Positions 3,005-6,694 of a stretch of DNA of 54,906 nucleotides are shown here, in pieces. The position numbers and the translations under genes are program-made. The stretch comes from an uncultured Opitutia bacterium (GTDB lineage: Bacteria > Verrucomicrobiota > Verrucomicrobiia > Opitutales > CAJWYM01). A model generated the notes under the pieces. It saw nothing but the letters and a program-made list of their open reading frames with translations, had not been told where the DNA came from and searched no databases. Each line of letters begins with the position of its first letter. The first letter of the stretch is position 1. The stretch is taken from NCBI GenBank assembly GCA_913049555.1, contig CAJWYM010000014.1, positions 1 to 54,906 on the forward strand, in the 5' to 3' direction.

Positions 3005-3811
3005 CTAAATCTCTAATAAGATCTTATAACTAGCGTGAATAGAGAAAATCAACCATTCCACTTTTTCTTCAACAATTTGAAGTTTACTTCCTATCTTACG
3101 AATCATTTTTAGTTCGTAAGGAAACCAAATCCCATCACTCATTGAAATTTCTAACATAAATTTCACAAACTTTTCTGCTTTGATTGGATCGATTGATTTT
3201 TGTTCTATTTGTTCCCCATGGATTGAGATCCTCTCAATGAGGTTGTGTTCCTTGGTTATCCGAACCAAATCCTCTAAGTATGGAATGTCTTTGTCTACTA
3301 ATTCATTGTCATTGTATACGATTTCTAAGGTTACAACAACTAATGTAAAAATCTCATCCTCCTCCATATCTTGGAGAAGGCGATCTAAAAGTTTTGATTT
3401 CATTGAGATCGTCAACTCATTAATTATTTGACGCCGGAGTTCAATGTCTATGTTGAGCATCAAAGCGGTTTCTCGCATCAAATAAATTTCATTAATATCT
3501 AAGTCCAAGTCACAGGAACAAATAGATACCACCGTCTTAAACACTTTTATACTCAATGCTGCTGGAATTTTAATGGGCTTTAAAACGATGGGGTGCCTCA
3601 AGTGAATAAATTTTTTTAAGCTTTTTACGATGGGTGGATGATCCATAAACACCTCTTTTATATGATTGAGGTATTCTTGCTCAGATTTGTGGATTTTACC
3701 ATCCGCCCAAATTGCAGCAATGATCGTCTTTATGATTTCTTCCTGCTCATGGGATGACAATCCTGATTGGGGCCCGATTTCATCGGGAGTAAAGGGTTCT
3801 AAATCAAACAT
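3005..3811 (-). CDS. TerB-like (tellurite-resistance-type) domain protein
   Basis: A 268-residue, all-helical soluble protein. Residues about 20-55 contain EIIKTIIAAIWADGKIHKSEQEYL, which matches the TerB pattern of a helix, an Asp-Gly turn and an acidic helix. A related segment appears near 145-165 (IVYNDNELVDKDIPYL) and again near 213-232 (MLEISMSDGIWFPYELKMIR), so it may hold two or three diverged copies. TerB-like domains bind metal ions or serve as membrane-associated scaffolds; no enzyme motif is visible. It lies 28 bases downstream of the ParA ATPase gene and probably belongs to the CHAD-parA-terB operon. The domain assignment rests on pattern, not a search. There is no signal peptide and no Shine-Dalgarno. 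Confidence 0.6.
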   Translation of the reverse strand: MFDLEPFTPDEIGPQSGLSSHEQEEIIKTIIAAIWADGKIHKSEQEYLNHIKEVFMDHPPIVKSLKKFIHLRHPIVLKPIKIPAALSIKVFKTVVSICSCDLDLDINEIYLMRETALMLNIDIELRRQIINELTISMKSKLLDRLLQDMEEDEIFTLVVVTLEIVYNDNELVDKDIPYLEDLVRITKEHNLIERISIHGEQIEQKSIDPIKAEKFVKFMLEISMSDGIWFPYELKMIRKIGSKLQIVEEKVEWLIFSIHASYKILLEI

Positions 3812-3839
3812 TTATTTTAGGAGTATTTTTTGAAGAATA

Positions 3840-4592
3840 TCAAAAGCTTTTATGACTTTTGGTCTCTATTTTTTCGAGGAGATCTCTATATCTTTGAGCA
3901 ATCAAACTACTTTTGCTGATATAATTAAAGACCGGACATTGGTGGATACCCATTTTTTCTATCTCAGCAGAAGCTGGTATCTGAACATGGAGCGTTTTCG
4001 GAAAACTTTTAGTGAATGAAATGATTGAATCTCGGTGGAGCTTTTTTCGGATTTCGACCATTGAAAAGTAGGGTTTCAGTTTTTTCTTTTTAATTTGGTT
4101 TTCTTTAAAAAAGGACGAGACTTGATGAAAGGTTCGAATCGATAGGGTGGTTGGAATAATGGGAACCAAAATTTGGTCTGAGGCATTGAAAATATTCTCA
4201 GAAAGAAGGGTTAAGTTTGGAGGGCAGTCGAGAAAAATGCAATCATACTCGCTTGAAAAGTCCTCCAGAAGGCTTCGCAGTTTTCTATCGGATTTTTTGA
4301 GTTCGTCTAGTTTAATGTCAAGATTTCTGTAAGAAATATCAGAAGGTAAAAGATCAAGATTTTCGAAGTCGGTTGCTTTTATATGTGGAGAAATCTTTTT
4401 ATGACCTTTAAGAAGCTTTTGGTCATTGTATGATTTGGAGGACTGAATTCTTAAGTAAAAGCTAGCAGCAGATTGAGGATCTAGATCGATGAGCAGGGTT
4501 CTATATTTAAGAGAAGCTAGATACGCTAAATTAACACATGTAGTCGTTTTACCAACGCCCCCTTTGATGCTGTAGAGAGAAATTGTTTTCAT
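3840..4592 (-). CDS. Orphan ParA/Soj-family ATPase
   Basis: A 250-residue deviant-Walker P-loop ATPase. Residues 10-17 are KGGVGKTT, including the signature lysine (K10). LLIDLDPQ at 33-40 is the switch I/Walker A' region and IFLDCPPN at 119-126 is Walker B. The LVPIIPTTLSIRTF segment is typical of Soj/ParA. There is no N-terminal helix-turn-helix, so this is the short type Ib-like form, which dimerises with ATP on DNA to position a cargo. No parB gene and no obvious parS repeats are nearby, so it is unlikely to be the chromosomal ParA. Its ATG overlaps the CHAD stop codon as TAATG, implying translational coupling, which ties its cargo to the CHAD protein by inference. Confidence 0.88.
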   Translation of the reverse strand: MKTISLYSIKGGVGKTTTCVNLAYLASLKYRTLLIDLDPQSAASFYLRIQSSKSYNDQKLLKGHKKISPHIKATDFENLDLLPSDISYRNLDIKLDELKKSDRKLRSLLEDFSSEYDCIFLDCPPNLTLLSENIFNASDQILVPIIPTTLSIRTFHQVSSFFKENQIKKKKLKPYFSMVEIRKKLHRDSIISFTKSFPKTLHVQIPASAEIEKMGIHQCPVFNYISKSSLIAQRYRDLLEKIETKSHKSF

Positions 4593-6214
4593 TATGAGTT
4601 TGGTTGATAATCAAAAAGGGCTTTGGCGTTGAGAAGGTTGTTTTTGGAACAAAAATTTTCAAAATGGGTAAAGAATTCACATTTTAAAGTCACTTTATCC
4701 ATTTGTAAATTTCCGATTAGTATTCCCATTGCGGTTGCTAATGGGATGCTCTCCTTATCAATACATAGCTTCTTTATATATTCATTGAGTTTTAATTGTT
4801 GCATACTTCTATCATTGAATTTACCTAAACATTTTTGCAATGTTTTCAAATTGTTAATAAAAGACTCCACTTGATTCTCTAAATAGAGACTGGAGTAAAA
4901 TTCCATTAAATATCTTAATTTTTTACCATGTATTCTCAATTCATGAAGCATTTCATCTGGAGAGTCTCGGTTTATCTTATAGCCCTCTGTCATCAATTTG
5001 CTGAGCGCTTTTAAAATCTGTTTATTGGCAATGCTTCCAACTTTTTCAGAAATCTTGTTGGTGATTGGATTGTCCGGAAATTCATTTTCTTTCAAGAAAA
5101 GTTCCCATCGATCTATAATTTCATAATAGACATTACTTTTAAGGAAATTTTTAAGTTTGCGCTGCTCAAGAATTCTTTCTTTTCTCAATTCGCAAAAAAA
5201 TGGATTCAGAGCGTCACTCATTTCGGGAGGGAGTGACTTTTTAATTTTTATTTCGCGTTGTAAATAGACATCGATATCTCGTAGTTTGTTGGTTGCATTG
5301 CCCAGCATTCTCATGTCGGTTTTTGCTGATTCCAAAGCATCCCTATCAAAGAGTTTTTTAGCAAAAGAGATTCCAGATCGGACTCTTCGGGTAGCAACCC
5401 GATAGTCGTGTAAAAATTCTACGTCAAGGTCTGCAACAATCCCCTCGGTATTTAAGTGGATTGTTTTCGTGCATTGATTGAAGATTTTTATCAAAGCTTG
5501 GTCTGCGTCGAGATTAGAATCTAAATGCAAGCGCAAACGGTTGTTGTAATTGAGATTTTTTCTAAGAGAAATGGGGAGGAATAATTGGGCCCAATCAAAT
5601 GGATTTTTCAATTCACTCTTTAAAAGAGGAGAAAAATAAATTTTTATTTTATTAAGAGCCTCTGTGTATCCTCGAAAAGGAAAAAGTTGGACCCAAGACA
5701 AAGACGGTTTCTCCTCAGTATACTTACTCTCACAGTAGATTCTATGGTATAACATAAATGCAACTGTTTTCATATCTTTGTTGAATATGGAATGTAGAGA
5801 GGACTGCTGATTGTATTGAACTTGATCTAGTAGAGATCGATTTGAAAGATGTGACGCAATCAGGTTTTGGAGATTCGGATCTTTAATCAGATGCTTGTTC
5901 GTGGCACCTTTTAAACATGATTTCAAAAACATTGGCGGAGGAGACGGGTAGGGGGGGGTGGCCTCTTTGGAGAGAAGGCATAGTTTATTTTTACTTTGAA
6001 ATAGAAGGAGGTTGTTTTTGTTCAGGCGCCAGTCGAAAGTGTCCCATCTGTGAAAAGTGCTCTGTCTAGTTTCTATTTTTTTTGAAGTGAATTTGTTTCG
6101 GAGAAATTGTAGCAAATCGGATGGAGAATTGTTTTCAGCTAAATGAAAATTGATCGGAGACAAAGTCCTAGTGGAGGAGGATTCAAATGAAGGAAAGTCT
6201 TGGGGTATCAACAT
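4592..6214 (-). CDS. CHAD-domain protein with degenerate CYTH-like N-terminus
   Basis: A 540-residue protein. Residues about 230-520 form a CHAD domain, a histidine-rich helical bundle: HDYRVATRRVRSGISFAKKLF, TNKLRDIDVYLQRE, MLHELRIHGKKLRYLMEFY and KCLGKFNDRSMQQL match its conserved His/Arg/Lys blocks. CHAD proteins bind inorganic polyphosphate and localise to polyphosphate granules. The first 200 residues contain WDTFDWRLNKNNLLLF, resembling the YFDTFDWRL segment of CYTH (triphosphate tunnel) domains, but the ExExK catalytic motif is not visible, so this half is probably inactive. It is the first gene of a tightly packed minus-strand operon, with a TAATG junction to parA. The start at 6214 is the only good ATG. 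Confidence 0.82.
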   Translation of the reverse strand: MLIPQDFPSFESSSTRTLSPINFHLAENNSPSDLLQFLRNKFTSKKIETRQSTFHRWDTFDWRLNKNNLLLFQSKNKLCLLSKEATPPYPSPPPMFLKSCLKGATNKHLIKDPNLQNLIASHLSNRSLLDQVQYNQQSSLHSIFNKDMKTVAFMLYHRIYCESKYTEEKPSLSWVQLFPFRGYTEALNKIKIYFSPLLKSELKNPFDWAQLFLPISLRKNLNYNNRLRLHLDSNLDADQALIKIFNQCTKTIHLNTEGIVADLDVEFLHDYRVATRRVRSGISFAKKLFDRDALESAKTDMRMLGNATNKLRDIDVYLQREIKIKKSLPPEMSDALNPFFCELRKERILEQRKLKNFLKSNVYYEIIDRWELFLKENEFPDNPITNKISEKVGSIANKQILKALSKLMTEGYKINRDSPDEMLHELRIHGKKLRYLMEFYSSLYLENQVESFINNLKTLQKCLGKFNDRSMQQLKLNEYIKKLCIDKESIPLATAMGILIGNLQMDKVTLKCEFFTHFENFCSKNNLLNAKALFDYQPNS

Positions 6215-6325: not shown

Positions 6326-6694
6326 ATGAAAAATCGCAATCAGATTATAAACGCATTGTATCAATTAGAAGAGTCTTTCTTGTCAGAAGGATTGAGTCCA
6401 ATTTTAGAGGAATATCAAATTGTCGACGACTCAGCAGAATCTGTTTGTTTACAAAGTTTTGAGTTTCGTGATAAGAAGCAAATGATTACCAGTTCTCGAA
6501 TTAGTTTGAAAGACAAAGTGACGGGTGAAGTTTTTATTGGCAACTCTGTTTTAGTTGGAGAAAAAATTAAAAAAAGTCGTTTATTGGCTATTTGTGATGC
6601 AATTGTAAACAACCAACTTTATGGGATTTTAGTAGTAGTGTCTTTAATGGACAAGGCTATGAAAAATAAAAGATTGGCTCCTTCGACTCTATAA
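6326..6694 (+). CDS. Small conserved-looking protein of unknown function
   Basis: A 122-residue protein I do not recognise. It starts MKNRNQIINALYQLEESF and has a helical first quarter, a strand-rich middle (MITSSRISLKDKVTGEVFIGNSV) and a hydrophobic helix near the end (LYGILVVVSLMDKAM). There is no signal peptide and no cysteine pair or metal motif. Composition and length look like a real coding gene. It is divergent from the CHAD operon, so the 111 bases between them must hold both promoters. The gene stands alone: the next gene begins 148 bases on. Confidence 0.6.
   Translation: MKNRNQIINALYQLEESFLSEGLSPILEEYQIVDDSAESVCLQSFEFRDKKQMITSSRISLKDKVTGEVFIGNSVLVGEKIKKSRLLAICDAIVNNQLYGILVVVSLMDKAMKNKRLAPSTL

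Follow-up and report, generated by a model that had tools for sequence, protein, structure and literature searches.

What does a ParA-type ATPase do when its gene directly follows that of a CHAD protein and no parB lies beside it? This question is raised by a minus-strand locus in a 54,906-nucleotide stretch of DNA from an uncultured Opitutia bacterium (the window; Table 1), where transcription runs from CHAD through ParA to a TerB-like gene. The original prediction read the locus as a system for positioning polyphosphate (polyP) granules, with CHAD as the cargo tag, and described a TAATG junction between CHAD and ParA, a TerB-like gene 28 bases after the ParA stop codon and a ParA lacking an adjoining ParB. 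These descriptions hold: the CHAD stop codon TAA (4594-4592) and the ParA start codon ATG (4592-4590) have one base in common, the spacing to the TerB-like ATG is as described, and contig C74, away from the ParA locus, carries the only ParB_N match in the genome. The genome also encodes a second ParA of the generic type (contig C16) and one PPK1. Upstream of CHAD, a divergent gene for a 122-aa protein (6326-6694) has a sub-threshold PhnG-like match (E 3e-4).

Table 1. Coordinates of the genes and sequence features of the CHAD–ParA locus in the window.
Feature	Position	Strand	Basis
CHAD protein gene, 540 aa	4592-6214	minus	PF05235 E 2.5e-46, residues 244-473
TTM-like (CYTH/TTM) N-terminal domain of CHAD protein, residues ~20-203	5606..6157	minus	AF2 model, Foldseek
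Long-type CHAD domain, residues 223-524	4643..5548	minus	phmmer to 3e0s/6qv7 E 3.5e-50
TAATG stop/start overlap, CHAD to ParA	4590..4594	minus	sequence
ParA-type ATPase gene, CHAD-linked clade, 250 aa	3840-4592	minus	AAA_31 PF13614 E 1.8e-39
Deviant Walker A KGGVGKT, ParA residues 10-16	4545..4565	minus	invariant, 45 homologues
ParA clade signature E212-x-M-G-x4-P220	3933..3959	minus	E212, M214, P220 invariant in 45 homologues
TerB-like gene, 268 aa	3005-3811	minus	PF05099 E 1.9e-9, two stretches

The CHAD–ParA pair occurs well beyond the window. A set of 289 genomes was drawn evenly from the window's phylum; the ParA clade (threshold E <= 1e-38) was found in 14 of them and CHAD in 77, and CHAD is directly followed by ParA in 12/12 genomes having both. 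Among 185 genomes of Gammaproteobacteria, searched with the Nitrosomonas ParA as query, 26 encode a clade ParA, 21 of them also encode CHAD, and the two genes are adjacent in 17 of the 21. Pooling both samples gives adjacency in 29/33 genomes having both genes (naive p about 1e-86, the genomes not being phylogenetically independent), and chance adjacency is ruled out by its frequency in the two samples. CHAD is also commoner in genomes with a clade ParA (Fisher p 4e-6 and 1e-8, shared ancestry ignored). From the two samples and a scan of genome contigs, 97 clade ParA loci were collected. CHAD lies directly upstream on the same strand (within 60 bases) in 58 of them, and these pairs overlap by 4 bases in 36 cases and by 1 base in 4, the window included. 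At least seven phyla contain the pair; examples are Chlorobiaceae, Desulfobacter latus, Pontiella sulfatireligans, Nitrosomonas europaea, Ruegeria, Tritonibacter and Marinospirillum, and one MAG each of Thermoanaerobaculia, Calditrichota and Dadabacteria. In two Halomonas species and one Binatia MAG the two genes stand side by side but convergent. In one of the 12 genomes of the window's phylum (G237; locus L213, contig C2 of 884,666 bases), CHAD spans the start of a circular replicon of ~0.88 Mb and ParA comes directly after it. The original prediction had staked itself on CHAD and ParA being neighbours in related genomes; they are, across phyla and with translational coupling, and the pair is confirmed as a tightly coupled conserved module.

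The CHAD half of the pair has close experimental relatives. The window protein matches the CHAD profile with 158.9 bits (PF05235; cut-off 25.6), and its AF2 model (pLDDT 85.7, pTM 0.84) superimposes on CtCHAD of Chlorobium tepidum with polyP (6qva) at a TM(target) of 0.94 in Foldseek. The C-terminal half is related to the same protein in sequence (3e0s, 6qv7, 6qva; phmmer E 3.5e-50), and CtCHAD itself is 51% identical to the ParA-paired CHAD of Chlorobium sp. L039. The structure of CtCHAD contains a polyP 9-mer, and the central residues H253, R256, R260, R296, R418 and Y419 were mutated in the same study (PMC6537752). All six are kept in the window (H269, R272, R276, R312, R434 and Y435), and none of them varies among 34 ParA-paired homologues; the window protein resembles CtCHAD and the Ralstonia phosins in its long-type CHAD and in its tested central polyP residues. 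In the outer basic patch of CtCHAD, K386, K390 and K441 are kept, and R385, K389 and R438 are replaced by L, S and N, respectively. Other CHAD proteins have been seen on polyP granules in vivo, according to work cited in PMC6537752, where depletion of CHAD proteins in Ralstonia is described as giving no apparent phenotype. The match to the CtCHAD–polyP structure and the retained residues strongly support the idea that CHAD is the polyP tag, and the window CHAD is on this homology a candidate polyP anchor.

The N-terminal half of the CHAD protein has no Pfam assignment and is beta-rich in the model. It takes on a triphosphate-tunnel fold there, and Foldseek relates it to thiamine triphosphatases, SaTTM and full-length YgiF; the matches to thiamine triphosphatase and YgiF have probability 1.00 and E-values of 4e-9 to 1e-3, with modest TM-scores. 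The catalytic ExExK motif was found in 0/59 CHAD partners within the first 60 residues, a range in which a few proteins have longer predicted starts and the strand may lie deeper. With ExExK found in none of these 59, the TTM-like half probably lacks polyphosphatase or cyclase activity, and it may be free to serve as an adaptor. Partners of ParA/MinD ATPases typically have a positively charged disordered N-terminal tail (PMC10241942). No basic N-terminal tail was found on CHAD: in 54 partners, the first 15 residues carry a net charge of -0.24 on average, and only 8/54 reach +2 or more. Many ParA-paired CHADs end in F..LF and a basic tail, with a charge of +2 or more in 27/54, and this C-terminal tail could be a candidate ParA-activating peptide.

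The ATPase of the pair retains its nucleotide-binding motifs and forms a distinct lineage. K10, K15 and T16 of the signature-lysine Walker A, as well as the Walker A' and Walker B aspartates D36, D38 and D122, are invariant in 45 homologues. R182, which was aligned by eye to the DNA-binding R189 of Soj, is arginine in 28/45, and position 183 is lysine or arginine in 43/45; nucleoid binding is uncertain because the putative R189 equivalent is kept only in those 28. The clade is split from generic ParAs by a branch with SH-aLRT 100, and five distant rows that had been labelled outgroup by score fall inside the CHAD-linked clade on this tree. The signature E.MG....P occurs in 94/97 clade members and 0/16 outgroup ParAs. 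The presence of CHAD, mapped as a label on the ParA tree, requires about 11 changes compared with 38 in shuffles. Distance matrices of CHAD and ParA are correlated (r = 0.80, Mantel 0/1000), part of which is due to shared species history. Moreover, both trees place Nitrosomonas and the Pontiella and Desulfobacter groups among Rhodobacterales-type members, and such matching cross-phylum placements would be harder to explain without joint transfer of CHAD and ParA. The window ParA itself is closest to those of Chlorobiaceae (58% identity), while the window CHAD shares only about 25-27% identity with its Chlorobiaceae counterparts, which may reflect either fast evolution of CHAD or separate histories of the two genes.

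The best reading of these data is a predicted role in positioning polyP granules, and we consider it fairly probable that CHAD and ParA form a self-contained module for this purpose. Since the cargo of ParA/MinD ATPases is usually encoded beside the ATPase, and gene neighbourhood is the usual basis for inferring it (PMC10241942), the analogy suggests CHAD as the cargo-bound partner and polyP granules as the cargo. The basic pore of CHAD would bind polyP chains of the granule, as seen for CtCHAD, whose residues are kept here, and the CHAD protein would act as a ParB/McdB-like partner, probably via its non-catalytic TTM-like half or a tail. If it behaves like other ParA/MinD ATPases, the ATP-bound ParA dimer would coat the nucleoid and granule-bound CHAD would stimulate ATP hydrolysis; granules following the resulting ParA gradient would be spaced and shared between daughter cells, with no requirement for TerB. 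Physical contact between CHAD and ParA, nucleoid binding and granule movement are what we infer in this scheme. The module is supported by conserved coupling, co-inheritance, the polyP residues, the polyP gene context and intact ATPase motifs; it is weakened by the lack of a basic N-terminal tail on CHAD, the imperfect conservation of the presumed DNA-binding arginine and the clade members without CHAD.

The gene context bears on what exactly the ATPase would place. Within six genes of the clade ParA, PPK1 is encoded in 13, a separate CYTH gene in 14 and PhoU in 5 of the 97 loci, as detected with neighbour-gene profiles whose seeds were named from motifs; NUDIX genes also recur near the pair. 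Three Paracoccus plasmid records have the order CHAD-ParA-CYTH, with NUDIX next in one of them (Paracoccus aestuarii). PPK1 is encoded in 37/40 genomes with a clade ParA, including that of the window, and lies within 7 kb of ParA in 7 of the 37. Its enrichment over the phylum background is not significant (13/14 versus 205/275, p 0.20), so co-occurrence of PPK1 was dropped as independent support and only close linkage was counted. On the conjugative plasmid pMAQU02 of Marinobacter nauticus (L225, 10163-18308), CHAD, phbB (PHB synthesis), pyruvate kinase and a clade ParA lie together, possibly as a mobile storage-granule island. The recurrence of PPK1, CYTH and NUDIX genes, and two loci (L199 and L092) in which PPK1 directly adjoins a clade ParA without adjacent CHAD, would agree with a ParA that brings CHAD and other polyP enzymes to a given place, such as a pole or the nucleoid, and thereby sets the site of granule nucleation without moving finished granules. 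However, the strict partner of the ATPase is CHAD, a polyP binder, and not PPK1, and next to most pairs no enzyme is encoded; we think this explanation unlikely.

Clade members without CHAD raise the question of other targets. For 36/97 clade ParAs no CHAD is encoded within two genes. Two genomes (G021 and G040; loci L007 and L009) have no CHAD at all, and their ParA gene is directly behind that of an SNF2-family helicase, which suggests another partner or cargo for the ATPase. In Chitinophagaceae CHAD is weak or absent in genomes with a clade ParA, and in this family and its kin a conserved 243-aa esterase-like protein follows the CHAD-less ParA (L055, L061, L066, L072, L074, L076-L079, L081, L084 and L086). 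Because such members exist, notably in Chitinophagaceae, the ATPase clade may have more than one cargo. They would also suit a scheme in which polyP is a signal: CHAD would sense polyP and switch a ParA acting on the nucleoid or the division site, and segregation or division would thereby be slowed under stress or starvation. But no conserved cell-cycle or division neighbour appears in the 97 loci, and we regard such a signalling role as quite improbable.

The TerB-like gene of the window (PF05099, 38.2 bits; cut-off 24.4), on the same strand just downstream of ParA, is probably on the same transcript as CHAD–ParA. The original prediction had given it the part of adaptor in granule positioning. 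This part did not survive the survey, as TerB adjoins a clade ParA in only 1/97 loci, that of the window. TerB as a conserved adaptor is rejected: the gene is a local addition and not part of the conserved module, and elsewhere the module must work without it. Its single-sequence model is poor (pLDDT 52) and yields no interface, and we hold it very unlikely that TerB links CHAD-coated granules to ParA; the CHAD protein with its TTM-like half is a better candidate. Least probable of all, and rejected here, is an ordinary ParABS partition ATPase beside CHAD by accident: it would fit the ParA fold, the Soj proteins as the nearest solved structures and the presence of relatives in 9 plasmid records, but the ParB of the genome is encoded elsewhere, no ParB neighbour recurs among the 97 loci, the clade is separate, the CHAD partner is conserved, and the inspected plasmid members from Paracoccus have CHAD-ParA-CYTH and not rep-parAB.

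The proposed positioning module has parallels in known systems. It is similar to McdA-McdB of carboxysomes in that a ParA-type ATPase with a deviant Walker A and no ParB is encoded beside a cargo binder. On the other hand, the partner here is a polyP-binding CHAD protein without a basic N-terminal tail and not McdB, and the structures of McdA (6non, 6noo) match the window ParA far more weakly than Soj. The polyphosphatase YgiF of E. coli (5a60) also has a TTM-like domain followed by CHAD, but the window protein differs in its long-type CHAD with a pore, the lack of ExExK and the ParA partner. In Pseudomonas aeruginosa, AlgP spaces polyP granules on the nucleoid; unlike CHAD–ParA, it is an unrelated histone H1-like tether and no ATPase (PMC9239181).

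Our literature search for CHAD or phosins together with ParA found only work on Acidithiobacillus to be relevant, in which parA of a folD-ppk-parA-CHAD cluster adjoins PPK1 and a CYTH-CHAD gene (PMC6416229, PMC10892726). The likeness lies in the reported gene neighbourhood, and that ParA may or may not be of the present clade. These papers concern one bacterial group. Their subjects are a proposed cAMP signalling role and copper resistance, with the adjacency read in terms of the former or just listed, and they do not deal with positioning. They describe the CYTH residues as conserved, whereas ExExK is missing in the CHAD partners here. In the parts of the CtCHAD and phosin work consulted, polyP binding is the only subject and a paired ParA is not discussed. 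The search found no proposal of a ParA for polyP granules. In the literature found, adjacency of CHAD and parA was thus known earlier only from Acidithiobacillus, without a positioning reading, and the proposal of a ParA for polyP appears to be new. A 2023 survey of ParA/MinD cargos does not mention polyphosphate (PMC10241942). A 2025 review of bacterial organelle positioning names a DNA-tether protein that places polyP granules in one species; for Caulobacter, it regards the positioning proteins as unidentified and the need for energy as something that remains to be seen (PMC13052382).

A two-gene module in at least seven phyla makes the question of ATP-driven polyP positioning directly testable. 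Its carriers include Nitrosomonas europaea, Rhodobacterales and Chlorobiaceae, the last being kin of the species with the solved CHAD–polyP structure. With the pair, a whole clade of 'orphan' ParA ATPases also gains a likely cargo. We see an even chance that it is a horizontally mobile and widespread two-protein machine for ATP-driven positioning and inheritance of polyP, in which a pseudo-TTM-CHAD protein replaces ParB without a basic N-terminal activator tail. The CHAD–ParA pair suggests a so far undescribed, ATP-driven way of placing and sharing out polyP storage granules, and if the positioning reading is true, these granules would be a new class of cargo for a known kind of ATPase.
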